Below, one piece after another: positions 19,141 through 62,543 of a stretch of DNA of 64,000 bases; the first letter of the stretch is position 1, and the number at the start of each line of letters is the position of its first letter. Position numbers and translations under genes: made by a program. The notes beneath the pieces were generated by a model. That model did no database searches and was not told the origin of the DNA. It saw only the letters and a program-made list of their open reading frames with translations. This DNA is from a virus, in IMG/VR virus record IMGVR_UViG_3300027973_000031, positions 47,589-111,588 of that record. One strand, given 5' to 3'.

Positions 19141-20145
19141 ATGAAGTTAGATGTTGTTTTGGGTTTATCTTATGGAGATGAAGGTAAAGGAAAAATTTGT
19201 CATAGTTTATTAAAAAACGGATTATATACTCACGTTATTAGATTTAATGGTGGAGGAAATGCGGGTCATACGATTTACCATGAAGGTAAAAAGATGGCTA
19301 CACATCTTATCCCTTCTGGCGTTTTCTTTGGAGTTAAGTCAATTGTAGGACCAGGTTGTGTTGTAGATATAAATAACTTCTTTAAAGAACTTTCCTATCT
19401 AAAAGAAAACGGAATTGATACGGAAGGTCTTGTTTATGTTGCAAAAAATGCTCACATAGTTCAGTCGTCTCACATAGAAGAAGACGGTAAAGACACGGAT
19501 ATTGGTACAACAAAAACAGGTAACGGTCCTTGTTATAAAGATAAATATTCAAGAATTGGTATTCGCGCAGAAAGTGTAGAAGCTTTAAAACCGTATCTGA
19601 TTGATATGTACGAGGAGTTCTATAGTCAAAATAATAGTTCTTTTGCTGTATTAGCAGAGGGAGCACAAGCTTTTGGCCTTGATATTGATTGGGGAGACTA
19701 TCCTTATGTAACATCAAGCCATTGTAGTGTTGGTTCTGTTCTTCTCAATGGATTTAACTATAAACAATTACGAAATGTTTACGGTGTCATTAAGGCTTAT
19801 GATACTTATGATGGTAAAAAAGACTTTCAGCCAAAAGGTGAAATCTTCGAAAGAATAGTAGAAGAAGGACAAGAATATGGTGTAACTATCTACAGAAAAA
19901 GAAAGGTCAATTGGCTTGATTGGAGCCTTGTGTTAAGATCGGCAAGAATGAACGGAGTTACTTCTATTATTATGAATAAGGTAGATATCTTAACAAAATT
20001 AGGTGCTTGGGCGGTTAGATATAATGATCAGCTAATAAACTTTGAATCAGAGCTTAAATTTACAAACTGGATTAAAACAGAATTAAACAAAGAAAATATC
20101 AAAGTTGTCTTTACTTATACGCCTTATGATTTTGAAATGGAGTAA
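19141..20145 (+). CDS. Short adenylosuccinate synthetase-family enzyme (PurA/PurZ family)
   Basis: 334 residues, near the short archaeal PurA/phage PurZ size rather than the about 430 of bacterial PurA. Motifs: LGLSYGDEGKGKI with Asp13 (the catalytic base of PurA) present, FNGGGNAGHTI with His43, KTGNGPCYKDKYSRIG, AEGAQAFGLDIDWGDYPYVT, and RKVNWLDWSLVLRSARMNG. It should join aspartate to IMP (or to a guanylate in PurZ types) using GTP or ATP. Retained Asp13 argues for PurA-like activity, since classical PurZ lacks it. Short length plus the GMP reductase neighbour make substrate specificity worth testing. Confidence 0.82.
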   Translation: MKLDVVLGLSYGDEGKGKICHSLLKNGLYTHVIRFNGGGNAGHTIYHEGKKMATHLIPSGVFFGVKSIVGPGCVVDINNFFKELSYLKENGIDTEGLVYVAKNAHIVQSSHIEEDGKDTDIGTTKTGNGPCYKDKYSRIGIRAESVEALKPYLIDMYEEFYSQNNSSFAVLAEGAQAFGLDIDWGDYPYVTSSHCSVGSVLLNGFNYKQLRNVYGVIKAYDTYDGKKDFQPKGEIFERIVEEGQEYGVTIYRKRKVNWLDWSLVLRSARMNGVTSIIMNKVDILTKLGAWAVRYNDQLINFESELKFTNWIKTELNKENIKVVFTYTPYDFEME

Positions 20146-46024: not shown

Positions 46025-46087
46025 GTGGGTGTCTTGAGCGGTTCAAGGCACTTCAACTTGGTTCCTAATTATTCTGAGGTTACTATC

Positions 46088-47155
46088 ATGGCTACTATTT
46101 CTTTCGGTACTTTCAACGCTATCGTGGACGCTATCGCTGACGCTCGCTTCCCCGTTCTGATTCGTGGTCGTCACGGTATCGGTAAGTCGCAACTCATTTA
46201 CCAGTTCGCTGGTCGTCGTTCTCTCGATGTGATTGAGCGTCGTGCTTCGCAGATGACGGAAGGCGATCTCATCGGTCTGCCTACTCTGGAACAGCGCACT
46301 ACGGCTCTGGTTACCAAGTGGGCTGCGTCTGACTGGTTCCAAGATGCTTGCGAGCGTGCCGTTGTTCTGTTCTTCGACGAGGTTGACCGTGGTGCGATGG
46401 AAGTTCGCCAAGGTCTGTTCGAATTGATGGATAGCCGTAAGCTGGCTGGTAAGCACTTGCACGCTGATACGCTGATGTTTGCCGCTGTCAACGGTGGTAT
46501 TCACGGTGCCAACTATCAAGTTTCGGACATGGACGTTGCCGAGCTTGACCGTTACACGACTTTCGATGTCGAGCCGACCGTTGAGGATTGGCTGACGTGG
46601 GCTAAGGATAACGTCGCTGGCGAAGTGTGGGACTTTATCAACAACAACCGTGGTCACTTGGAGCACACCGATACGTTTGAGCCGAACAAGAAGTATCCTT
46701 CTCGTCGTTCTTGGGCGCGTGCTTCGACTGCAATCAGCAAGGGCAAGATGCTTGAGAAGGGTGCAACTCCCGAACTCCAAGCAATCGTTCAGGGTTTCGT
46801 CGGGTTCGAGGCTTCGACTGCGTTCACCGACTTCATTCGCAACTATGACCGTCAGGTTAAGGTTGAGGATGTTCTGAATGGTAAGGCTCTCAAGATGACC
46901 AAGAAGTTCTCGTTGAACGAACACCTCGCTCTGATCGAGAAGCTTGGCGCGAGCAAGTGCTTCGATAAGCAGCTTGGTGCGGACGAAGCCAAGAATGTTG
47001 CCGAGTACTACGTCAACCTGCCTTCCGAGGCTGCGACCAAGATTGCTGGTATCTTCGGCAAGCTCAACAACCCGCTGATCATGAAGCAGAATACGAGCAA
47101 GGGTCTCGCCTCGCTGTACGCGGTTCAGATCCTGACTGGTAAGAAGGTCAGCTAG
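46088..47155 (+). CDS. MoxR-type AAA+ ATPase
   Basis: 355 residues from ATG 46088 (TGAGG upstream). Walker A IRGRHGIGKSQLI, GDLIGLPTLEQ after it, Walker B VVLFFDEVDRG, sensor 1 MFAAVNGG, and DVAELDRYTTFDVEP as in MoxR ATPases. MoxR proteins remodel partners, typically a VWA-domain protein encoded next door, as here. Codon third positions are much richer in G/C than elsewhere in the window, suggesting recent transfer or strong expression. Confidence 0.85.
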   Translation: MATISFGTFNAIVDAIADARFPVLIRGRHGIGKSQLIYQFAGRRSLDVIERRASQMTEGDLIGLPTLEQRTTALVTKWAASDWFQDACERAVVLFFDEVDRGAMEVRQGLFELMDSRKLAGKHLHADTLMFAAVNGGIHGANYQVSDMDVAELDRYTTFDVEPTVEDWLTWAKDNVAGEVWDFINNNRGHLEHTDTFEPNKKYPSRRSWARASTAISKGKMLEKGATPELQAIVQGFVGFEASTAFTDFIRNYDRQVKVEDVLNGKALKMTKKFSLNEHLALIEKLGASKCFDKQLGADEAKNVAEYYVNLPSEAATKIAGIFGKLNNPLIMKQNTSKGLASLYAVQILTGKKVS

Positions 47156-47176
47156 TCGGTAATAGGTAATCAAGTT

Positions 47177-47223
47177 GTGTGCCACCTTGACAGGAAACTG
47201 CTGGGGTGGCACACTCCTATCAT
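47177..47223 (+). promoter_or_regulatory. Dyad with TTGACA in its loop
   Basis: GTGTGCCACC (47177-47186) and GGTGGCACAC (47205-47214) form a perfect 10-bp inverted repeat with TTGACA (47187-47192) at the start of the loop; a CACACT sequence sits 17 bp after it (47210-47215). Either a weak promoter of the hairpin-embedded kind or a processing/attenuation hairpin between the MoxR and VWA genes. Confidence 0.55.
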
Positions 47224-47251
47224 GTTCAACCCTCCACCTCACAGGTGTACT

Positions 47252-48487
47252 ATGGCTTACGATCTTAATATTGACATTGCCCGTTTGCTCAAAGATGAGC
47301 CTTTCTTCGCAGCCCTTTCTCGTCGTATCGAGAAGATTTCCACTACGTCCATTCCTACTGCTGGCGTCGGTCTAAACCGCGAAGCTATGCAGTATGAGTT
47401 TCTTTACAATCCAGCGTTCTTCGAGAAGCTTACCGAGGCACAGCGTCGTGGTGTAATCATCCACGAGTTCTATCACTTGGTTTTCCGTCACGTTGCTAAT
47501 CGTCGCCCTGCTCAGGTTATTCGTGAGCCTGAGAAGTATTTCAAGTTGTGGAACATCGCAGCCGACTTGTCAATCAATTGTCTGATTGGTGCCGCCAATC
47601 TGCCCGAGAATTGCTGTATTCCTGGTGGTAAGTCCTTTGAGGATTTCCCCTCGATGGAATCTGCTGAGTTCTACTTCCGCAAGATCCTTGAGAAGGTAGA
47701 GAACGATCCGAATGGTGGTGGTGGCGACGGTGATGGTGTCGATGGTTCTGGTCAGTTTGACGATCATGGTAATTGGGCGGAAGGTTCCGGTGACGGAATG
47801 GAAGCCGAGACTGCCAACGAGCGTGTCAAGGAATACTTGAAGGAAGCTGCTGAGAAGGCTGATTCCAAGGGTTGGGGTACCATGACCAGCAAGACCCGCG
47901 AGGAAATCCGTAAGTTCCTTGAATCGTATGTTGACTGGCGCAAGGTTCTGCGTATGTTTATTGGTCGCGCCCAGCGTGCTGACAAGTCCAATACTCGTCG
48001 CAAGATCGACAAGCGCACTCACAATTACGCTCAGGGTATCGGCGTTGTGTCGGTTAACCCAGGTCGTAAGGTCAACAAGATCGCCAACATTGCAATCTCG
48101 ATTGACCAGTCTGGTTCTGTCGATGACGATTTGCTTGGCGCGTTCTACGCGGAACTCAATGGTCTTTCCAAAATGGCAACCTTCACCGTGATTCCGTTCG
48201 ATGATGCGGTTTTCGAGCAGAAGGTCTACGTTTGGAAGAAGGGTGACAAGCGTAAGCGTGAGCGTGTTCTTTGCGGCGGTACGAACTTTGATGCTCCGAC
48301 CAAGTATGTGAATGAGCGTAACTTTGACGGACACATCATCCTTACCGATATGTGTGCGCCAAAGCCGGTTGCATCCAAGAAGCAAAGAATGTGGATGACT
48401 TCTGCTCGTCACGCAAAGAGTCCTTATTACGATCCTCGTCCGAACGAGATGATGATTGTGATCGAGGAAAAGAAGAAGAACGGATAA
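47252..48487 (+). CDS. VWA-domain metallopeptidase-like protein (MoxR partner)
   Basis: 411 residues from ATG 47252. N-terminal HEFYHLVFRH (HExxH zinc motif) in a DUF2201-like metallopeptidase domain, an acidic Gly/Asp linker (GGGGDGDGVDGSGQFDDHG), then a VWA domain with MIDAS AISIDQSGSVDDD, GGTNFDAP and HIILTDMCAP. The gene pair MoxR plus VWA/HExxH is well known in bacteria as a chaperone-like or stress module of unclear target; in phages it is uncommon. Same GC-rich codon use as the MoxR gene. Confidence 0.82.
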   Translation: MAYDLNIDIARLLKDEPFFAALSRRIEKISTTSIPTAGVGLNREAMQYEFLYNPAFFEKLTEAQRRGVIIHEFYHLVFRHVANRRPAQVIREPEKYFKLWNIAADLSINCLIGAANLPENCCIPGGKSFEDFPSMESAEFYFRKILEKVENDPNGGGGDGDGVDGSGQFDDHGNWAEGSGDGMEAETANERVKEYLKEAAEKADSKGWGTMTSKTREEIRKFLESYVDWRKVLRMFIGRAQRADKSNTRRKIDKRTHNYAQGIGVVSVNPGRKVNKIANIAISIDQSGSVDDDLLGAFYAELNGLSKMATFTVIPFDDAVFEQKVYVWKKGDKRKRERVLCGGTNFDAPTKYVNERNFDGHIILTDMCAPKPVASKKQRMWMTSARHAKSPYYDPRPNEMMIVIEEKKKNG

Positions 48488-51351: not shown

Positions 51352-51442
51352 GGGGAGATGGTCGAGTGGTTTAAGGCAGCAGCTTGGAAAGCTGTCGTAG
51401 GTGAATAATCTACCGGGGGTTCGAATCCCCCTCTTCCCGCCA
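51352..51442 (+). tRNA. tRNA-Ser (GGA)
   Basis: Acceptor GGGGAGA pairs with TCTTCCC, anticodon loop CTTGGAA with GGA, long variable arm, T loop TTCGAAT, CCA encoded. Complete class II tRNA reading UCC/UCU. Confidence 0.92.
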
Positions 51443-51467
51443 ATTACTTTTGTTTACTGAGGACAAT

Positions 51468-51746
51468 ATGGAACCGAAGGATATTGCTTACAAAATTCTT
51501 GTCAACGAGGAAACTGGAGAGCGAACCTATTTGCTTGACGAAGAGCCTTGGACATTTGTTGATCCTGCCAATGTTAAGATCGGAGACATCGTTTACTTTG
51601 ACCCAAATGGTTTGGGCAGAAACGGTATCGTTGCAAACATTCGTGAAGAAGATTTCATCTATTATGATGTTTACTTTGGATCGAATATGGAGTCGGAAGA
51701 GGTTGCAATGTTTCAGGTTTACAAAGTGGAGGAACGAAATGGTTGA
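51468..51746 (+). CDS. Small SH3/KOW-like protein
   Basis: 92 residues from ATG 51468 (GAGGACAATATG). YKILVNEETGERTYLLDEEP, then VKIGDIVYFDPNGLGRNGIV and YYDVYFGSN. Barrel style as in 42008 and 50616. Overlaps the next gene by 8 bases. Confidence 0.55.
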   Translation: MEPKDIAYKILVNEETGERTYLLDEEPWTFVDPANVKIGDIVYFDPNGLGRNGIVANIREEDFIYYDVYFGSNMESEEVAMFQVYKVEERNG

Positions 51747-51990
51747 GATTCTTAAACGTCTTAGTTCGAGACAGATTGTTGTGAGACAAAATAATAAGTT
51801 CTATCTTGTTTCGCAGTCAAGCGAAGCCATTGAGCCACTCGAAACACTTATCTTTGAGTGTGATGAATCTGGCAAAGTGGAAACGTGGAACGAGATTGGT
51901 GGAGCAGTTGGTTATTCTCTGGAATCATTTATGCCAATGCTGCTAGAGCACGGTGTGCATTACAAAGATTGGGATGATTTTCCTTGGTAA
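51739..51990 (+). CDS. Small protein of unknown function
   Basis: 83 residues from ATG 51739 (GGAGG upstream). EILKRLSSRQIVVRQNNKFY, then EPLETLIFECDESGKVETWN. Not recognised. Confidence 0.55.
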   Translation: MVEILKRLSSRQIVVRQNNKFYLVSQSSEAIEPLETLIFECDESGKVETWNEIGGAVGYSLESFMPMLLEHGVHYKDWDDFPW

Positions 51991-52006
51991 TAAACCTTTG
52001 GAGGGA

Positions 52007-52480
52007 ATGATGATTGTTTACAGCAGAAAGATTAAAAAGCTTAAATTAATGACCAGCTTTGCCAGAAAGATCCGAAAGATTAGACAATGGCTGTTTGTTA
52101 ATTCTCCAGTTATGTTCATCAAGAATTGTTGGAGATTCCGTAAGCAACTTGCACGATTTCGTTCCTTCGATTATAAGTTCAATCTTGACCTGTTCTGTGC
52201 GTCTTTGGAAATTACCAGAGACTTTATGTTGAGTGATCAAACCGTTACATTAGGAACGGATCAAACGGCAGAAGAGATTCAGCATTTCCTCGATCTGGTA
52301 AAACGATACAACAACGCAATTCAGGTTGCAGAACAGGAACTTGGTTATGAGCTTTCCCCCATCGGGGAAAACAGAGAGGGAGACAAAGCTCTTATGACCA
52401 GAATCGAAAGCATCGAAGAAACTTCTTGGCACGATGCTTTCAGATTTCTTTCCCAAAAATTGAGAAACTGGTGGGATTAA
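52007..52480 (+). CDS. Basic helical protein of unknown function
   Basis: 157 residues from ATG 52007 (GGAGGGA upstream). N-terminal half strongly basic (SRKIKKLKLMTSFARKIRKI), C-terminal half acidic and helical. May bind nucleic acid. A run of T follows the stop. Confidence 0.5.
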   Translation: MMIVYSRKIKKLKLMTSFARKIRKIRQWLFVNSPVMFIKNCWRFRKQLARFRSFDYKFNLDLFCASLEITRDFMLSDQTVTLGTDQTAEEIQHFLDLVKRYNNAIQVAEQELGYELSPIGENREGDKALMTRIESIEETSWHDAFRFLSQKLRNWWD

Positions 52481-52494
52481 TTTTTTTTATGGAC

Positions 52495-52533
52495 TTGACT
52501 TAAAACCTGACACTAGTTATGCTACTGTCAGGT
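52495..52533 (+). promoter_or_regulatory. Hairpin-embedded promoter before tRNA-Gly
   Basis: TTGACT 52495-52500, TATGCT 52518-52523 (17 bp). Perfect 8-bp arms ACCTGACA (52505-52512) and TGTCAGGT (52526-52533) enclose the -10; TAG/CTA pair inside. The tRNA starts 4 bases later. Confidence 0.8.
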
Positions 52534-52537
52534 CAAC

Positions 52538-52609
52538 GCGGAATTGGCATATAGGTTTGTGCTCCAGCCTTCCAAGCTGGCTAAATGGGTTCGAGTCCCA
52601 TATTCCGCT
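52538..52609 (+). tRNA. tRNA-Gly (UCC)
   Basis: Acceptor GCGGAAT/ATTCCGC, D stem GCAT/GTGC, anticodon loop CTTCCAA with TCC, T arm ATGGG-TTCGAGT-CCCAT. CCA is not encoded. Confidence 0.9.
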
Positions 52610-52619
52610 CTAAAATTAA

Positions 52620-52667
52620 CCGGGGTGTAGCGCAGTCTGGTTAAGCGTTTCCAGAGCGCAAATGTAT
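52620..52667 (+). pseudogene. tRNA 5'-half remnant
   Basis: CGGGGTGTAGCGCAG followed by TCTGGTTAAGCG looks like the acceptor and D arm of a tRNA (tRNA-Pro-like), but no matching anticodon, T arm or acceptor 3' strand follows. The same opening recurs at 52944. Confidence 0.5.
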
Positions 52668-52688
52668 TGAAGTTGTCCAGCACAATTC

Positions 52689-52774
52689 GGAAGGGTGGCA
52701 GAGTGGTTTAATGCAGCGGTCTTGAAAACCGCCGATGTTAATAGCATCCAAGGGTTCAAATCCCTTCCCTTCCG
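52689..52774 (+). tRNA. tRNA-Ser (UGA)
   Basis: Acceptor GGAAGGG/CCCTTCC, anticodon loop CTTGAAA with TGA, long variable arm, T arm AAGGG-TTCAAAT-CCCTT, discriminator G followed by CCT rather than CCA. Confidence 0.9.
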
Positions 52775-52776
52775 CC

Positions 52777-52876
52777 TATGCGCGTTAATCTAGTCAGATA
52801 AAGACCACTAGAATTGAGCTTTAAGGTATAGACGGATGGTTTATACCCAGCGGAGGACAATACACCGCCGCGCATA
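52777..52876 (+). ncRNA. Cloverleaf-shaped structured RNA of unknown function
   Basis: It begins 2 bases after tRNA-Ser. An 8-bp perfect closing stem TATGCGCG (52777-52784) / CGCGCATA (52869-52876) encloses three perfect hairpins: TCTAGT/ACTAGA (52789-52812), GGTATA/TATACC (52825-52847) and GCGG/CCGC (52850-52868). The last hairpin abuts the closing stem as a T arm does, but no T loop or anticodon arm with tRNA sequence is present. Confidence 0.6.
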
Positions 52877-52883
52877 CTACAAT

Positions 52884-52939
52884 TTCCGCATCGGATAAAG
52901 CTAATTCGGAAATGATCACAGGATAACGTGTCTGCGGAA
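52884..52939 (+). ncRNA. Possible second structured RNA
   Basis: TTCCGCA (52884-52890) pairs with TGCGGAA (52933-52939); inside, ATTTCCG/CGGAAAT is a competing pairing and CAC/GTG a small hairpin. Two mutually exclusive folds are possible. Weak evidence. Confidence 0.35.
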
Positions 52940-52943
52940 TAAT

Positions 52944-52975
52944 CGGGGTGTAGCGCAGAGGAAGCGCATTTGAAA
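52944..52975 (+). pseudogene. tRNA 5'-half remnant
   Basis: CGGGGTGTAGCGCAG again, followed by AGGAAGCGCATT, then AT-rich sequence with no other tRNA parts. Second copy of the opening at 52620. Confidence 0.45.
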
Positions 52976-52987
52976 ATTTATTTGTAT

Positions 52988-53067
52988 CTAGGTGTAGCTC
53001 AGCTTGGTTAGAGCGCCTGCCTTGGGCGCAGGAGGTTTCGGAGGTTCAAATCCTTTCACCTAGACCA
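52988..53067 (+). tRNA. tRNA-Pro (UGG)
   Basis: Acceptor CTAGGTG/CACCTAG, D arm GCTC/GAGC, anticodon loop CTTGGGC with TGG, T loop TTCAAAT, discriminator A and CCA encoded. Confidence 0.9.
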
Positions 53068-53081
53068 AAACGTTTTACTCT

Positions 53082-53096
53082 GACTATTTATAATAG
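53082..53096 (+). promoter_or_regulatory. Putative late promoter (GACTATTTATAATAG)
   Basis: The element lies 25 bases before ATG 53107 of the HNH gene; AGAGG follows. Confidence 0.55.
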
Positions 53097-53106
53097 AGGT
53101 GGTAAA

Positions 53107-53658
53107 ATGATAAACGTAACAAAACAAGAATTAGAGGAAATTGTAAAAGATTCCGTTTCATACTATGAAGTTCTTAGAAAAATTAAACTCCCCAACAATG
53201 GAACAGGTCAGAGAAAAACAAAGAAATTAATCCAAGATTTTGGAATTGATACATCTCACTTTTCTTTTAAAGCTTCTGTAGAAAAGTTTCATAGAAAGTA
53301 TAAATTAATTACCAAACTTTGTCCTGCGTGTGGGAAAGAATTTCAAGCAAGCGAAGGTTCTCCAGATGAAAAACAAACCTGTTCATATGGATGCTCTAAT
53401 ACTTATTTTGCACATTTGAGAAATAAGCCAGAACGACACACCAATTACAGAACAATCTGTTTTAAATCTTGGAAAAAAGAATGTGTTGTTTGCGGCTTTG
53501 ATAAGGTTGTGGAGGTTCACCACCTTGACCACAATCATTCTAATAATGACAAACATAATTTGGTTCCAGTTTGTCCAAATCATCACCAGATGCTTCACAC
53601 AAGTAAATGGGCAGAAGAGACTAGACAAGAAATCTTAAAGGTGGTAGAGTCTAGGTAA
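53107..53658 (+). CDS. HNH homing-type endonuclease
   Basis: 183 residues. N-terminal DNA-binding-like part (VTKQELEEIVKDSVSYYEVL), a zinc pair CPACGKEF with CSYGC, then the HNH core CVVCGFDKVVEVHHLDHNHS, NLVPVCPNHHQMLH. Located within the tRNA cluster and ending in a tRNA 3' half, a typical free-standing homing endonuclease site. It has a late-type promoter. Confidence 0.88.
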   Translation: MINVTKQELEEIVKDSVSYYEVLRKIKLPNNGTGQRKTKKLIQDFGIDTSHFSFKASVEKFHRKYKLITKLCPACGKEFQASEGSPDEKQTCSYGCSNTYFAHLRNKPERHTNYRTICFKSWKKECVVCGFDKVVEVHHLDHNHSNNDKHNLVPVCPNHHQMLHTSKWAEETRQEILKVVESR

Positions 53659-53690
53659 GTCGTGGGTTCGAATCCCCTCCTGATCCACCA
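53659..53690 (+). pseudogene. tRNA 3'-half remnant at the end of the HNH gene
   Basis: T arm GTGGGTTCGAATCCCCTC followed by CTGATCC, A and CCA: a complete tRNA 3' end. A matching 5' strand GGATCAG is not found nearby. It starts right at the HNH stop. Confidence 0.6.
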
Positions 53691-53706
53691 ACATTAGAGA
53701 AACAAA

Positions 53707-54237
53707 ATGAAGCAAGAGTTTGTAATTTTCACTGGACCAATGTTCGGTGGCAAAACATCAAGGATGCTTTCACAGTTAGAAAGAGCGAAGTATCAAAAGA
53801 AAGTAATCAAATTATTCAAACCAAGTATTGATATAAGGTATTCAAACAAATCCGTTGTTTCGCACAATGGAAACCGTTGGGAATCTATTCCAATTAGCGA
53901 CGGCAAAGAGATCTATGATAATTTAGGTAAAGCAGATGTTATTGCAGTTGACGAAGCATTTATGATTCCAGGTGTTTCAGATGTTTTGGTTGAACTGTAC
54001 AAACAAGGGAAACAGATTTATGTTTCCTCTCTCCAACTTTCATCCGAAGGAACAACATTTCCAGAGATGACAAAGATGTTTTCTTGGGCAACAAAGATTG
54101 AGATTTGCCCTGCCGTTTGTTTCTGTGGAAATGATGCTTACTATACAATCACCTTGACAGAGAAACAGGAAGAGGTTAGAGTAGGTGGTAAGGAAGGATA
54201 CGAACCGAGATGCAAAGAGCATACGGATTTTATGTAA
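53707..54237 (+). CDS. tdk: Thymidine kinase
   Basis: 176 residues. Walker A FTGPMFGGKTSRML, VIAVDEAFMI (Walker B/lid), QIYVSSLQLSSEGTTFPEM, and two Cys pairs for zinc (CPAVCFCG and the C-terminal RC). It phosphorylates thymidine. Type II family, length slightly shorter than E. coli Tdk (205). Confidence 0.92.
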   Translation: MKQEFVIFTGPMFGGKTSRMLSQLERAKYQKKVIKLFKPSIDIRYSNKSVVSHNGNRWESIPISDGKEIYDNLGKADVIAVDEAFMIPGVSDVLVELYKQGKQIYVSSLQLSSEGTTFPEMTKMFSWATKIEICPAVCFCGNDAYYTITLTEKQEEVRVGGKEGYEPRCKEHTDFM

Positions 54238-54245
54238 TAGCCGAC

Positions 54246-54322
54246 AGGATTGTAGCTCAGGTGGTTAGAGCATTGTGCTGATAACGCAAGGGTCGGTGGT
54301 TCAACTCCACCCAGTCCTACCA
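54246..54322 (+). tRNA. tRNA-Ile (GAU)
   Basis: Acceptor AGGATTG/CAGTCCT, D arm GCTC/GAGC, anticodon loop CTGATAA with GAT, T loop TTCAACT, A and CCA encoded. Confidence 0.9.
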
Positions 54323-54339
54323 ATAATAAGAGTATTAAA

Positions 54340-54432
54340 ATGATTGAAATTATCAACATTGTAAAAGAAAACCCAGAAGGTATTTACATTGCATTAGGCT
54401 TTGCAGTTCTATACTTAATCTTAAAATCTTAA
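54340..54432 (+). CDS. Tiny membrane peptide
   Basis: 30 residues from ATG 54340 with AATAAGAG upstream: an acidic start (IEIINIVKENPEG) and one membrane helix (IYIALGFAVLYLILKS). Too short to judge function; coding is plausible from the membrane pattern and position. Confidence 0.4.
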   Translation: MIEIINIVKENPEGIYIALGFAVLYLILKS

Positions 54433-54444
54433 TGCAGGTTTGTT

Positions 54445-54768
54445 ATGAGAACAGATTTTAATTCAGTTTGGGTTCTTGTAAAGAAATGGAATGAAGAAGT
54501 TAGAGAAGACGATGTAATCTTCTTTGATTATGATGATGCAGTGTTTTACTGTGAACAAAAGAATCAAGAAGAGTATAATAAATCAAACTCTAAAGATCAT
54601 TATGTTCGTTTGTTTTCTGTTCAAACTCTTTACGAATCAATGAGATATATTATCAGAGAAGCCGAAAAGTGTAGTTATGATGAAGGATATGAAAGCGGAT
54701 ACGAATCTGGAAGGGATGATGGATATGATGAGGGATACGATAGTGGACGCGGAGAAGCTAATTCATAA
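54445..54768 (+). CDS. Uncharacterised protein with Gly/Tyr/Asp repeat tail
   Basis: 107 residues. Charged body, then a tail of five YESG/YDEG-type repeats (DEGYESGYESGRDDGYDEGY). Such tails are seen in YhcC-like and some membrane-facing phage proteins; function unknown. The next gene may start within or just after it. Confidence 0.55.
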   Translation: MRTDFNSVWVLVKKWNEEVREDDVIFFDYDDAVFYCEQKNQEEYNKSNSKDHYVRLFSVQTLYESMRYIIREAEKCSYDEGYESGYESGRDDGYDEGYDSGRGEANS

Positions 54769-54772
54769 TTTT

Positions 54773-55135
54773 ATGTTTGTCTCTCCTTTGGCTCGTGATC
54801 TATTGAAGCTTCATTATTCTCAGATTGCAAATCAAGAACTATTTGATGAACTCGAAAAGATGTGCAAAGAACACGTCTTGACAAAGATCCAAGAGAACGA
54901 TAGACTAATGAAGGAAGCGAGAGAGAAGGCAGCAACAGCCGATAATGTGGTGCAAAGAATCCTGCATTATCATTCTTATGCTCAACATAAGAACACTCCA
55001 AAGATGAGACTTACCACCAAGGAATACGATCAGTCTATGTCTCTTCTAAATGACGAAGAGAAAGCAAAAGTAGAAAACTGGTTGGAGTTAAATGGTGGAC
55101 TTGACAAGTATGTAGTGGCAGGGCATAATGGCTGA
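54773..55135 (+). CDS. Helical protein of unknown function
   Basis: 120 residues if ATG 54773 is used; the frame is open upstream in the repeat region of the previous gene, where several ATGs lie, so the start is uncertain. Helical with His (VVQRILHYHSYAQHKNTPK). Its end overlaps the next gene by 8 bases. Confidence 0.5.
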   Translation: MFVSPLARDLLKLHYSQIANQELFDELEKMCKEHVLTKIQENDRLMKEAREKAATADNVVQRILHYHSYAQHKNTPKMRLTTKEYDQSMSLLNDEEKAKVENWLELNGGLDKYVVAGHNG

Positions 55136-55439
55136 CAAGTTGAACACAGAAGAGTGGGAGAATATGAGGAAGGCATTCAAGGAAGCCCGCGAAGCCTATG
55201 AAAAGGACGCAGAAAGCTTCTGGGATTCCTTACCCTACGACGACAAGCTGAAAGTGTTTCACGCGGTTGTAAAGCGAATTTACAAGGCTGAAATCGAAGA
55301 GCAAGGATCGTATCGTCACTCTCTATACAATGTGTTTGAGTTTGATGCTGATGCTTATGTAATCGGAATGGATTGCGGATACTTTGATCTTCACAACGTT
55401 CTTTGTGAAGTTAAATTAAAAAAGGATGAAGATGCTTAA
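55128..55439 (+). CDS. Acidic protein of unknown function
   Basis: 103 residues, helical and acidic (NMRKAFKEAREAYEKDAESF, FDADAYVIGMDCGYFDLHNV). Not recognised. Overlaps both neighbours. Confidence 0.55.
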   Translation: MADKLNTEEWENMRKAFKEAREAYEKDAESFWDSLPYDDKLKVFHAVVKRIYKAEIEEQGSYRHSLYNVFEFDADAYVIGMDCGYFDLHNVLCEVKLKKDEDA

Positions 55440-55719
55440 TTTTAAAGAAAGAAAGGTCGTTGTCTCGTTAGAAGCGGCTGATGAAGACATTGAGGTTTTA
55501 ATTCACGAAGAAAGAGATTGGGATAGAAAGCAGAAACGTCTATTGAATGACAAAACCAGCTTCCGAATCTCGGTTTCATTTACAAATGATCTATCTTATA
55601 GTGCTGTTGACCTTGTTGCAGAAACAGAAGAAGAAGCAAAAGCAGTCGCACAAGATGCTGTAAACTTCCTGAGAAAAATTCGACCAGCTCTGAAAATTGT
55701 TAAAGAAGATAAAGAATAG
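55432..55719 (+). CDS. Small alpha/beta protein of unknown function
   Basis: 95 residues from ATG 55432, 6-7 bases after AAAAGG; ATG 55426 is too close to it. KERKVVVSLEAADEDIEVLI, FRISVSFTNDLSYSAVDLVA and EEEAKAVAQDAVNFLRKIRP suggest a small beta-alpha fold. Not recognised. Confidence 0.5.
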   Translation: MLNFKERKVVVSLEAADEDIEVLIHEERDWDRKQKRLLNDKTSFRISVSFTNDLSYSAVDLVAETEEEAKAVAQDAVNFLRKIRPALKIVKEDKE

Positions 55720-55722
55720 TGG

Positions 55723-55757
55723 TTGACAAGCGAACGGAGACACGCTATACTGTCTCC
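55723..55757 (+). promoter_or_regulatory. Hairpin-embedded promoter before tRNA-Ile
   Basis: TTGACA 55723-55728, TATACT 55746-55751 (17 bp). Perfect 7-bp arms GGAGACA (55736-55742) and TGTCTCC (55751-55757) flank the -10. The tRNA begins 6 bases later. Confidence 0.75.
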
Positions 55758-55763
55758 AACAAT

Positions 55764-55840
55764 CCGCCTCGATCTATCTGGTTGAAAGAAAACGTCTTAT
55801 AAGCGTTCATAGCTGGGTTCAATTCCCAGGGGGCGGACCA
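55764..55840 (+). tRNA. tRNA-Ile (UAU), unusual D arm
   Basis: Acceptor CCGCCTC pairs with GGGGCGG, anticodon stem AACGT/GCGTT with loop CTTATAA and anticodon TAT, T arm CTGGG-TTCAATT-CCCAG, discriminator A and CCA. The D stem is only 3 bp (TCT/AGA). It would read AUA. Confidence 0.7.
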
Positions 55841-56025
55841 GACCTATAATAAGTAATTCTCGTAGTGTAAAAATGGATAAGCTAATTAACCAGGTCGTGC
55901 AGCACTTAAATAACCCTGTCAAAGGGGAAAGATGCTGCAACCTTTAGGGGGAAGTGGTCCCGAAGCAAAAAGAACAGGCATATAGACAACAAGTGAGTTT
56001 ATATGCTGAACTCTTATTATAGGTC
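55841..56025 (+). ncRNA. Structured RNA closed by a 13-bp perfect stem
   Basis: It begins directly after the CCA of tRNA-Ile. GACCTATAATAAG (55841-55853) pairs perfectly with CTTATTATAGGTC (56013-56025). Inside: TGCAGCA (55898-55904)/TGCTGCA (55933-55939), and GCATATA (55978-55984)/TATATGC (56000-56006). tRNA-Ser starts 6 bases after it. No ORF of note fills it. It does not match any RNA family I can recognise. Confidence 0.65.
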
Positions 56026-56031
56026 TATTTA

Positions 56032-56121
56032 GGAAACGTGGCAGAGAGGCCGATTGCAGCGGTTTGCTAAACCGTCGAACATTGTAAAGATGTTCCGTAG
56101 GTTCAAATCCTACCGTTTCCG
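56032..56121 (+). tRNA. tRNA-Ser (GCU)
   Basis: Acceptor GGAAACG/CGTTTCC, anticodon loop TTGCTAA with GCT, long variable arm (ACATTGTAAAGATGT), T loop TTCAAAT, discriminator G followed by CCG. Confidence 0.9.
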
Positions 56122-56135
56122 CCGAGGAAGTGTGA

Positions 56136-56951
56136 ATGAAAAAAATAATTCTGTCGTTAATGCTATTGTTTGGTTCCGTCAGAGCAGAAGCTCTAACCAT
56201 TGAAGATGGTGTGAATCAATCGATTGTTGATGATGTATCTCACGGTGAAGATAAGTTTAATTTGCCAATCTGGACCAGAATAGGTTTTGTGAAAGGTAAT
56301 GATGAATTTGATTCAAGGCATGAGAATTATAGACGATCTACATTTCTTGCTCATCACGAAATCAGGGATGCGAAAACACATTATGTTATCGTATGGAACC
56401 ACGGAATGGGAGGATTCAAGGACTTTGGTAATAACATTTACCCCTTCTTGAAATACCTCTACGATTCTGGAAAGAGTTTCACTTGGATTTCCCCAGAACT
56501 TCCTTGGAGCAAGTATGTAAATGGCATTGACGGCAGAACGGCTTGGAAGAAGAGTGGATCATTTAAAAAGTTCTATGATTCTTCCATAGCTTTGGTCCCG
56601 CAGTTGACATCAAGCAAACAGATTGTTATAGTTGTCGCAGGACACTCGCGTGGGGGAAAGTCAATTGCTAATGCAGCCAGAAGTGGCGATCTGTGCAAAG
56701 TAAACCCAAGCTGGGTTATTTGGTCAGATGCAAGTTATTCCCAGTGGCTGGATGATGCTTGGAAGTTTTGCTTAGAAAATAATGCCTCGCGTGTCGAGGT
56801 GTTCTACTTGAAGGGCACAGAAACACAAGCATCAGCAAAACGACTGGAAAAACAAAATAATAAACTTGTTAGCATTCACCAGTTGACTTCCCCTTGGTAT
56901 CATGGTAAGATCGGCAAGTCAGTGATAATGATGTCAGAGGCTTTTAGATGA
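56136..56951 (+). CDS. Exported alpha/beta-hydrolase-like protein
   Basis: 271 residues. Sec signal peptide MKKIILSLMLLFGSVRAEA. The nucleophile elbow GHSRGGKS is preceded by IVIVVAG; earlier YVIVWNHGMGGF fits the oxyanion strand and LTSPWYHGKIG a catalytic His region. Esterase- or lipase-like activity in the periplasm or outer membrane is likely, perhaps in lysis or exclusion. Overlaps the next gene by 4 bases. Confidence 0.65.
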   Translation: MKKIILSLMLLFGSVRAEALTIEDGVNQSIVDDVSHGEDKFNLPIWTRIGFVKGNDEFDSRHENYRRSTFLAHHEIRDAKTHYVIVWNHGMGGFKDFGNNIYPFLKYLYDSGKSFTWISPELPWSKYVNGIDGRTAWKKSGSFKKFYDSSIALVPQLTSSKQIVIVVAGHSRGGKSIANAARSGDLCKVNPSWVIWSDASYSQWLDDAWKFCLENNASRVEVFYLKGTETQASAKRLEKQNNKLVSIHQLTSPWYHGKIGKSVIMMSEAFR

Positions 56952-57172
56952 AGAACCCATTTACACAACACCCGCAATCAGTAGGCGAAACTTATATTCA
57001 ACACTTGCTGATTGCTTGGAAAGGAACGTATCGTCTTGGATTGTCGGCAGTAATCTTTTTCTTCCACGCAATCTTTCCTTTTCTTCCAATTCCAAAACCA
57101 TTTGATTTAGATTCAACATCTGACTGGCTAAACTCGATTAGAGCAAGGAGAGAAAATAATGGGAACCCGTAG
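56948..57172 (+). CDS. Small membrane protein
   Basis: 74 residues with one hydrophobic segment (LSAVIFFFHAIFPFLPIPKP) after a polar start. Coupled to the exported hydrolase-like gene before it and overlapping the gene after it. Function unknown. Confidence 0.55.
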   Translation: MKNPFTQHPQSVGETYIQHLLIAWKGTYRLGLSAVIFFFHAIFPFLPIPKPFDLDSTSDWLNSIRARRENNGNP

Positions 57173-57524
57173 TTTTATCGGCAAGAGTAATCCGGATAAG
57201 TCAATTACTACTATCTACTGCCATTTTGATGGTTATCCTGAACACAATGGCAAGATTCTAATTGATAATTATATCACAGAAGAAATGGTAGATTCTCTTC
57301 TTGCCGGTGGAGATATGAGCAGTTTGGGTGTTGTTCCGCATATGTGCGATACATATCGTGCTCGCGGAGAAAGAGGAGTAGATGCTAGAATCTACACCGA
57401 TTTTGACACAATGTTTAATGGTGGCGTTGACTCTTGGGCAGAATACTTCTACGTTTATGAAGATGGCGTATGGCGTTGTTGGAACAGAAAGAAAGAAATA
57501 ATTGATCTAACAAAGCTGGAATGA
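57159..57524 (+). CDS. Uncharacterised phage-family protein
   Basis: 121 residues. The start MGTRSFIGKSNPDKSITTIY then CHFDGYPEHNGKIL and ending VYEDGVWRCW is a pattern common in phage proteins (GTRS.IG...... .YCH.DGYP...G..L), whose function is unknown. Ends 7 bases before tRNA-Leu. Confidence 0.65.
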   Translation: MGTRSFIGKSNPDKSITTIYCHFDGYPEHNGKILIDNYITEEMVDSLLAGGDMSSLGVVPHMCDTYRARGERGVDARIYTDFDTMFNGGVDSWAEYFYVYEDGVWRCWNRKKEIIDLTKLE

Positions 57525-57531
57525 TAAATAA

Positions 57532-57606
57532 GGGCATGTAGTCCAACAGGCAGGAGACAATTGACTTAAAATCAATACAGTGTGGGTTCGAATCCCACCG
57601 CGCCCA
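57532..57606 (+). tRNA. tRNA with UAA anticodon (Leu) but short variable loop
   Basis: Acceptor GGGCATG/CGCGCCC (one A-C mismatch), D arm GTCC/GGAG, anticodon stem ATTGA/TCAAT with loop CTTAAAA and anticodon TAA, variable loop only ACAGT, T arm GTGGG-TTCGAAT-CCCAC. Bacterial tRNA-Leu normally has a long variable arm, so identity is uncertain. Confidence 0.75.
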
Positions 57607-57619
57607 CCGAGAGCACCAA

Positions 57620-57760
57620 ATGAAAGTAATTAAGCTAAGTATAGAATACTATTCAGAACCAAGAAATTGGTTAACAAAAACTTGGATATATTCTAATGGT
57701 AATAAGAGAAAAACTTGTAAGGTAAAGATTAGAGAAGTAGATTTATCCAAAGGTCCGTAA
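57620..57760 (+). CDS. Tiny protein ending inside tRNA-Thr
   Basis: 46 residues from ATG 57620: MKVIKLSIEYYSEPRNWLTK then TWIYSNGNKRKTCKVKI. Its last codons and stop are the first nine bases of tRNA-Thr. It is similar in start and make-up to 58159 and 62692, which supports coding. Confidence 0.5.
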   Translation: MKVIKLSIEYYSEPRNWLTKTWIYSNGNKRKTCKVKIREVDLSKGP

Positions 57761-57826
57761 ACATTGACGGCGATGTACCAGATTTGTAACCTGGAAAACT
57801 CAGTTCAACTCTGAGACGGACCTCCA
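57752..57826 (+). tRNA. tRNA-Thr (UGU)
   Basis: Acceptor GGTCCGT/ACGGACC, D stem ACAT/ATGT, anticodon loop TTTGTAA with TGT, T arm CTCAG-TTCAACT-CTGAG, discriminator T and CCA. One A-C mismatch in the anticodon stem. Confidence 0.85.
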
Positions 57827-59867: not shown

Positions 59868-59918
59868 TTGACACAAAAACCCTCCTCTGCTATAGTTAGT
59901 TGTATAGAGAGGAGGGTT
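59868..59918 (+). promoter_or_regulatory. Hairpin-embedded promoter that buries the next RBS
   Basis: TTGACA 59868-59873, TATAGT 59891-59896 (17 bp). Perfect 11-bp arms 59878-59888 and 59908-59918 plus an inner CTATA/TATAG; the right arm contains AGGAGG, the ribosome site for ATG 59923. Confidence 0.85.
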
Positions 59919-59922
59919 CGTT

Positions 59923-60108
59923 ATGTTTGTCGTTTGCAAGAAATGTGGTGTCGAACACGATGCCAGAGATGTCAATAACGGTATTTGCGTTTGGTGTGAA
60001 CAGAAGGAGAATAGCGAAACCGCTGCACTCCAAAGTTCTCAGCGTTCTCTCTTTATTAAGAGGGTTGACTGGAAATACAAGGCAGGCTATAGTCGCTACA
60101 ACAAGTGA
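59923..60108 (+). CDS. Small zinc-ribbon protein
   Basis: 61 residues from ATG 59923. VVCKKCGVEHDARDVNNGIC then VWCEQK gives a two-pair zinc site; the C terminus is basic. Translation should depend on the promoter inside the hairpin just upstream. Confidence 0.65.
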   Translation: MFVVCKKCGVEHDARDVNNGICVWCEQKENSETAALQSSQRSLFIKRVDWKYKAGYSRYNK

Positions 60109-60116
60109 GGTCCACA

Positions 60117-60374
60117 GTGAGCTACCGAAGATATTATTATATTACCAAGGATTCAACCCTTTCACAGCTTAAGACATCAATCGAGAATCTTGAAAATCTA
60201 TTTTCCAGTGAAGCAGAACACGCTGTTTCAACAGATCTGATCGAGGTTGAGGGAATGAATACGATTTCGTGTCCCGCACACTTTGTTCAGTTGATTCACG
60301 CAATCAAGCTTCTCAAAGACTTGGAACGTAGAGTTGAAGCTGATGAGTTTGTTTCACTTCAAGGAAAGGAATAG
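60117..60374 (+). CDS. Helical protein of unknown function
   Basis: 85 residues from GTG 60117, with GAGG 6 bases upstream; GTG 60105 is possible. LSQLKTSIENLENLFSSEAE and FVQLIHAIKLLKDLERRVEA are amphipathic helices. Not recognised. Ends 7 bases before the tmRNA. Confidence 0.5.
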   Translation: MSYRRYYYITKDSTLSQLKTSIENLENLFSSEAEHAVSTDLIEVEGMNTISCPAHFVQLIHAIKLLKDLERRVEADEFVSLQGKE

Positions 60375-60380
60375 TTTAAC

Positions 60381-60739
60381 GGGGGTGTAAAGGTTTCGAC
60401 TGGGTAGGATATACGATTATGCAGGACGATGGGCAGCGTGGCATCGTAAAAACGCTGAAATGTTTAATTGCCAACGACAACGTTGCTTTTGATTACGCCG
60501 TAGCGGCTTAAATCACGGAGTCTCCAAACACTCTGTAAAACAAGTTTGGATAGGTTGGAGTCTTATCGAAAACAAGATTCATTGGCATTTCTAACTGGTT
60601 TTGCCATAAATAAATCAGTATGAAGTCCCTGTAACTCAGGTGTTTTTGCCAAGGGTAGGTTGGGTGCTTGGCTATTCCTGTGAATGAGTAATCGTATTGA
60701 GTATTTAGGATAGCGGTTCAATTCCGCTCACCTCCACCA
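60381..60739 (+). ncRNA. ssrA: Transfer-messenger RNA (tmRNA), phage-encoded
   Basis: 359 nt. The 5' end GGGGGTGTAAAGGTTTCGAC and the 3' end with T arm AGCGG-TTCAATT-CCGCT, CACCTCC, A, CCA form the tRNA-like half; the acceptor stem has seven pairs (one G-T). The tag frame 60470-60511 reads ANDNVAFDYAVAA then TAA, with the ANDN start and AA end of known tags. It is a one-piece tmRNA. It would rescue stalled ribosomes and tag broken proteins for proteolysis, or compete with host tmRNA. Several internal hairpins suit the pseudoknot ring. SmpB is not seen in the window. Confidence 0.93.
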
Positions 60740-60761
60740 ATTTCCCCTCAGCTCCACCAAT
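60727..60761 (+). repeat. Tandem copy of the tmRNA 3' end
   Basis: CTCACCTCCACCAAT (60727-60741) is repeated as CTCAGCTCCACCAAT (60747-60761), one mismatch in 15, 20 bases apart. Such duplicates of a tRNA/tmRNA 3' end can be left by recombination at an att-type site. Confidence 0.6.
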
Positions 60762-60769
60762 GAGGAATT

Positions 60770-61138
60770 ATGTATCATCGTTTTAAGAAGGGGATGACAG
60801 TTAGTGAATTGATTGAAGATTTGCAAATGATAATTGCCGATCTTTCGTTGAAGAATGAAGATGAAATTGTTTTTGCACAACTTAAAATTTCTACTGAACA
60901 GACTTGCCGAAATGACCTCACTTATGATCAAGAAAATCGTTATGATGAAGAAACAGTGTTGGATGAAATCGTTCAATATATTCCTCCGCACGATGTAATC
61001 AGATACTTTCTGGATTCAGAAGAAGAAGCAAGAAATTCCGATGATTATTGGGATAGGATGCAAGATTCAAAAAGTGAAATTTGGTCAGAGCTTATTGAAA
61101 ATCTTCCGAAAGAATTGAGGGATAAGAATGGATTTTGA
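60770..61138 (+). CDS. Acidic protein of unknown function
   Basis: 122 residues. RFKKGMTVSELIEDLQMIIA, then DEIVFAQLKISTEQTC, and an acidic Asp/Glu helix-rich C-terminal half. The first part resembles small phage proteins with MTVSEL..L......D..V. Not recognised. Overlaps the next gene by 11 bases. Confidence 0.55.
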   Translation: MYHRFKKGMTVSELIEDLQMIIADLSLKNEDEIVFAQLKISTEQTCRNDLTYDQENRYDEETVLDEIVQYIPPHDVIRYFLDSEEEARNSDDYWDRMQDSKSEIWSELIENLPKELRDKNGF

Positions 61139-62138: not shown

Positions 62139-62543
62139 ATGTATAGAATTGAGATGTCCAGAAGAAATGAGAGGTTGTTTGGCTTTGCAAAGAGAATGGC
62201 AGAGCTTTCCAGCTACGGAAAGTTCCGACACGGAGCCGTTTTGGTTCATCACGGTGTTGTTCTCAATGCTTCCCACAACAAGGATAAGCCTTGTTCGTTT
62301 GGAAGTCGTTTTCGTTGCAAGTCTAAGGGTCAAGCAACACTTCACGCAGAACTTGGTGCCATTCTTAATATGCCTCGTGAATCAACCGAAGGTGCAGACG
62401 TTTATGTTGTGAGAGTTAATTACGATAATGAATTCAGGAACTCAAAGCCCTGTCCGATGTGTCAGGAAGCAATGAGGTTCTGTGGAATCAAGAGAGTATT
62501 TTATTCAACTGAATACGGACACTTTGAAGTGATGAAGCTATGA
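62139..62543 (+). CDS. Cytidine/dCMP deaminase-family protein
   Basis: 134 residues, 2 bases after the phosphoesterase. Zinc motif TLHAELGAIL (His and catalytic Glu) and KPCPMCQEAMRFCG (two Cys). A dCMP deaminase would make dUMP for ThyX; a base or nucleoside deaminase is an alternative. Overlaps the next small gene by 4 bases. Confidence 0.82.
   Translation: MYRIEMSRRNERLFGFAKRMAELSSYGKFRHGAVLVHHGVVLNASHNKDKPCSFGSRFRCKSKGQATLHAELGAILNMPRESTEGADVYVVRVNYDNEFRNSKPCPMCQEAMRFCGIKRVFYSTEYGHFEVMKL

Follow-up and report, generated by a model that had tools for sequence, protein, structure and literature searches.

A phage-encoded one-piece tmRNA with a clade-specific tag

The window, the whole stretch of 64,000 nucleotides analysed here, covers positions 47589-111588 of the IMG/VR record IMGVR_UViG_3300027973_000031 (111,588 bp), and contains a tmRNA (ssrA) gene, which lies downstream of a group of tRNA genes and is flanked by two open reading frames (ORFs). 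The features of this region, in window coordinates, are as follows:

51352-57826, plus strand: nine tRNA genes, 5' of the tmRNA (ARAGORN)
59868-59896, plus strand: promoter-like TTGACA-17-TATAGT (11/12, extended -10) in an intergenic gap 5' of the tmRNA; a consensus match only
60105-60374, plus strand: small ORF upstream of the tmRNA, with its stop 6 nt before it; position kept in the related records G001, G003 and G004
60381-60739, plus strand: one-piece tmRNA (ssrA) gene, CCA encoded (ARAGORN; Rfam RF00023)
60381-60387, plus strand: acceptor stem 5' strand GGGGGTG, including G3 of the alanine-identity pair G3-U70, present in 51/51 distinct relatives
60411-60420, plus strand: helix 2 5' strand ATACGATTAT, paired to 60688-60697, with changes that compensate each other in G001 and G003
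60470-60511, plus strand: tag frame GCC...GCT TAA, encoding ANDNVAFDYAVAA and a stop, with the resume codon GCC at 60470 (ARAGORN coding part 90-131); frame kept in relatives
60688-60697, plus strand: helix 2 3' strand GTAATCGTAT, pairing with 60411-60420
60712-60728, plus strand: T arm AGCGG-TTCAATT-CCGCT (alignment with relatives)
60729-60739, plus strand: acceptor stem 3' strand CACCTCC (with U70) and the ACCA end (alignment with relatives)
60770-61138, plus strand: ORF downstream of the tmRNA; homologue near the tmRNA also in G001, G003 and G004

The record encodes a terminase, a portal, a major capsid protein, a tail sheath, and baseplate genes, together with a DnaE-type polymerase, a ribonucleotide reductase, and GroEL, and it looks like that of a lytic T4-like myophage, with no integrase seen in a scan of part of the record proteins. 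One of the tRNA genes (55764-55840) is a tRNA-Ile with the anticodon TAT, which is uncommon in bacteria. At 19141-20145, an adenylosuccinate synthetase homologue matches PHROG 1211 (2-aminooxy adenylosuccinate synthetase, PurZ-like; E 1.4e-63), and a modified-purine genome is thus possible. The phage GroEL (37799-39379) is approximately 50% identical to those of many large IMG/VR phages, and a G+C-rich island (46025-48487; about 52% vs. 38-44% in the flanks) carries an AAA ATPase and a DUF2201 metallopeptidase/VWA protein, which form a MoxR-VWA-like pair.

The preliminary description, which made its claim depend on a covariance-model search, proposed an entire one-piece tmRNA bearing a tag of its own, and both of the programs applied recovered it. 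ARAGORN placed it at 60381-60739 on the plus strand, and cmscan matched RF00023 from end to end (model positions 1-374) with E = 5.3e-49; the score, 126.4 bits, lies far above the gathering score of 47, a margin that excludes a chance match. The domains follow the normal, non-permuted 5' to 3' order (ARAGORN type tmRNA, rather than the starred type), and the 3' domain is not encoded upstream of the tag domain, as it is in two-piece genes. The G3-U70 pair and the CCA end provide the features for alanine charging, and the RNA is predicted to be chargeable. The same description had set the tag apart from the E. coli type, correctly, but the ANDN start that it took to be shared is not, as the E. 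coli tag is ANDENYALAA, and the phage tag ends in AVAA rather than ALAA. This ending, and the T loop TTCAATT, make the RNA somewhat divergent, which was counted against a functional reading. The sequence CTCCACCAAT at the 3' end of the tmRNA is repeated some 20 nt downstream (60729-60770).

Relatives of the gene were gathered in two ways, that is, from GroEL-related records, a sampling blind to the tag, and through a scan of IMG/VR with the strict tag pattern ANDNxx[FY][DN]YA[LV]AA. A full tmRNA was present in six of the 30 GroEL-related records, and the pattern scan returned 67 stretches, nearly all of them one-piece where ARAGORN gave a call. Across the 51 distinct one-piece genes, the G3-U70 pair is invariant, as are G1-C72 and G7-C66, and acceptor pairs 2, 4, 5, and 6 covary. 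Pair 5-68, for example, is GC in 29 genes, AU in 17, CG in two, UA in one, and GU in two, and pair 6-67 is either UA (25) or CG (26). In two of the relatives (L149 and L073), other acceptor pairs are altered on both sides, with G3-U70 retained. Helix 2 is maintained, at 10 bp in the window and in G001 and at 12 bp in G003, through compensatory changes on both strands. The tag frame is open and alanine-ended in essentially all of the relatives, and its codons vary synonymously while the amino acids hold. The structure of the tmRNA is under selection, and the covariation around a constant G3-U70, the compensation in helix 2, and the held tag residues together form the pattern of a working tmRNA. 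The tag-blind samplings, based on GroEL and on the terminase (TerL), also recovered intact tmRNAs, with tags ending in [LV]AA.

The order of the genes around the tmRNA is the same in G001, G003, and G004. In the sister phage G002, with a terminase 74% identical to that of the window phage, the homologues of 60105-60374 and 62139-62543 directly adjoin each other, leaving no space for a tmRNA at the collinear site, and no tmRNA scored above the cut-off elsewhere in that record. The gene has therefore been lost or gained within the group, and there must be some setting in which the phage can do without it, a point that counts against the functional reading.

The tag consensus of the phage family is ANDNV[E/A/S/T]FDYALAA (consensus form ANDNVEFDYALAA), with position 5, which the search pattern leaves free, occupied by V in 48 of 49 cases, and position 6 variable. 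Where a terminase was found in a tag-carrying record, it was 45-54% identical to that of the window phage, except in G045, which has a permuted tmRNA and a terminase only 31% identical, and nearly all of the tag-carrying phages with a comparable terminase belong to one family. Distances between the tmRNAs correlate with those between the terminases (Mantel 0.55, p = 0.014), which indicates that the descent of the tmRNA has been mainly vertical. One lineage (G017) lies inside the terminase tree, and has a distant tmRNA with another tag, ANNNNYFEQRLAA, which suggests replacement. Sampling by terminase also yielded the tags ANDNVAFDYALAA, ANNNNYELALAA, and ANDDVEIFEDFALAA, and given ANNNNYFEQRLAA, ANNNNYELALAA, and ANDDVEIFEDFALAA, the consensus is common in the family, but not universal. 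Tag identity is 0.85 inside the family and 0.49 outside it, values not taken as proof because most of the sequences were chosen by the tag pattern; the tag-blind set was used in their place. In the tag-blind sample of viral tmRNAs there are many other tags, some of them the same as host tags, such as ANDENYALAA.

Two permuted (two-piece) phage tmRNAs, L099 and L122, carry nearly the same tag (ANDNVPFDYALAA and ANDNEAFDYALAA), which therefore occurs in both gene architectures. The terminase in the L099 record is only distantly related (31%). Another class of viral tag, ANNNN[YH]FEQRLAA, was seen in the one-piece tmRNAs L069, L435, and L469. The tag strings matched none of the papers in the collection searched. 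The tag pattern may be used as a metagenome marker for the phage family.

A complete scan of genome_contigs (84,980 bacterial and archaeal genomes, at the species level) returned no match to the strict tag pattern. A looser pattern matched at least 119 stretches there, a result that at the same time gave the scan its positive control, and the matches listed were from Alphaproteobacteria, with two titled only Proteobacteria; all 53 of the ARAGORN calls among them were two-piece. The tag of Caulobacter, ANDNFAEEFAVAA, resembles that of the phage in its 13 residues, its ANDN start, and its [FY]A[LV]AA end, whereas the middle differs (VAFD in the phage, FAEE in Caulobacter), as does the form of the gene, which is one-piece in the phage and two-piece in the bacterial matches that ARAGORN called. 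The expectation that comparison with bacterial tags might reveal the host was not borne out, since nothing in genome_contigs fitted the strict pattern. An alphaproteobacterial host is possible, the only hint being that the nearest bacterial tags among the matches listed are alphaproteobacterial. The terminase and GroEL, at approximately 40% identity, pointed weakly to Flavobacterium phage immuto and Microcystis phage Mel-JY01, and this pointer to the host was set aside. Shine-Dalgarno cores precede 58% of the ORFs of the window phage, against a background of 6%, whereas such motifs precede none of the 33 ORFs of immuto, and this difference in usage makes a Bacteroidota host unlikely. The window DNA had no match among phage records.

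A search for SmpB (PF01668), which the preliminary description had proposed might lie beyond the window, found none across the whole record, nor in 50 related records, many of them fragments; the same search detected SmpB in 10 of 14 control genomes. The phage would thus presumably borrow the SmpB of its host.

It is very probable that the gene is a functional phage ssrA, which carries out ordinary trans-translation during infection with the host AlaRS, SmpB, and ClpXP-type proteases. The tmRNA would be transcribed together with the adjacent small genes, matured by host enzymes, charged with alanine by the host AlaRS through G3-U70, and bound by the host SmpB. The charged RNA would then enter ribosomes stalled on truncated mRNAs, adding (A)ANDNVAFDYAVAA to the nascent protein and freeing the ribosome at the stop codon of the tag itself, and the tagged protein would, in turn, be degraded by ClpXP-type proteases of the host. 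The preliminary description held that the tag might steer tagging away from or toward host proteases; the C-terminal A-V/L-A-A of the phage tag, however, preserves the established ClpX-type degron, and this favors ordinary degradation. The phage may gain from the recycling of ribosomes, and perhaps of amino acids, under a high level of mRNA damage and translation load, which fits its own set of tRNAs.

A working tmRNA is also needed if the phage tag has been selected mainly to alter the choice of SspB-like adaptor or protease, relative to the host tag, and hence what becomes of the tagged proteins or how fast they are degraded, and this explanation thus overlaps that of ordinary trans-translation. 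The tag class occurs in none of the 84,980 bacterial and archaeal genomes, yet in 67 viral stretches, mostly of one family where this could be tested; its amino acids are held while the codons change; and its middle, VxFDY, is unlike that of the alphaproteobacterial tags among the matches listed, such as FAEEF or NAKEY. The ends of the tag, ANDN and Y-A-L/V-A-A, are nevertheless those of ordinary degron tags, any difference from the tag of the host itself is hypothetical, and the tags differ within the family (ANNNNYFEQRLAA, ANNNNYELALAA, ANDDVEIFEDFALAA). Selection for such a switch is therefore rather unlikely, and it is equally doubtful that the family tag is kept as a phage trait apart from any bacterial tag, giving the tagged proteins a fate unlike that conferred by the host tag.

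There is very little probability that the RNA is a decoy, which titrates SmpB or AlaRS and blocks the trans-translation of the host. That no SmpB gene was found in the record or in the 50 related records speaks for this role, and a precedent has been suggested in mycobacteriophage DS6A, where a possible decoy role was discussed for an RNA reduced to the tRNA-like domain (PMC4131195). The tag frame, the resume region, and the mRNA-like domain are, however, intact and conserved here, and a decoy would need none of them. Least probable of all is a functionless recent passenger from the host chromosome, left, for example, by imprecise prophage excision. In its favor, ssrA is a frequent prophage attachment site, and only 52 of 80 viral loci in the tag-blind search hold a full tmRNA, some having the 3' end alone. 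It is largely refuted, however, by the covariation in the acceptor stem and the synteny kept, with mainly vertical descent, across terminases 45-54% identical to that of the window phage, and is also opposed by a class of tag that matched none of the bacterial genomes and by the lytic T4-like appearance of a phage with no integrase among the part of its proteins scanned.

The statement of the preliminary description that phage tmRNAs are rare is overstated, given that a published survey found tmRNA in 402 of 18,146 phage genomes (PMC9004378) and that six of 30 related records have it here. As roles, the authors of that survey already suggest maintaining the translation apparatus taken over by the phage, or amino acid recycling. 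Phage tmRNAs have been catalogued before, and in the present family the tag occurs in many natural variants, one sister phage has no tmRNA at the same site, and one lineage has switched to another tag, which would allow the direct comparison of tag-host matching and of the benefit of carrying ssrA.

The window tmRNA agrees with the one-piece tmRNA of RF00023 in its full-length match, G3-U70 pair, alanine resume codon, and AA tag end, and differs from ordinary one-piece tmRNAs in being encoded by a phage in which no smpB was found, with a tag that has no match in genome_contigs. Like the mycobacteriophages Bxz1, Cali, and Wildcat, and Bacillus phage G (PMC4131195), as well as Streptomyces phage StarPlatinum (MH576965), the window phage carries ssrA on a large genome. 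One-piece tmRNAs are on record for Streptomyces phages, and in StarPlatinum, with the tag ANSNVASAYALAA, the tmRNA is also close to tRNA genes. The tag and the phage family differ from those of all these phages, and the window tmRNA had no match among phage records, even in a blastn search with short words. Methylophilales phage Melnitz and Pelagibacter phage Mosig, both aquatic, are also T4-like myophages with ssrA, and have a two-piece tmRNA and a glutamine riboswitch (PMC9004378). The tag of Mosig is GEDNFALAA. The window tmRNA is one-piece, and no riboswitch was matched by Rfam within the 64,000-nt window. Phage tmRNAs of this kind are already known, and the clade-specific tag is the least ordinary feature of the present one.
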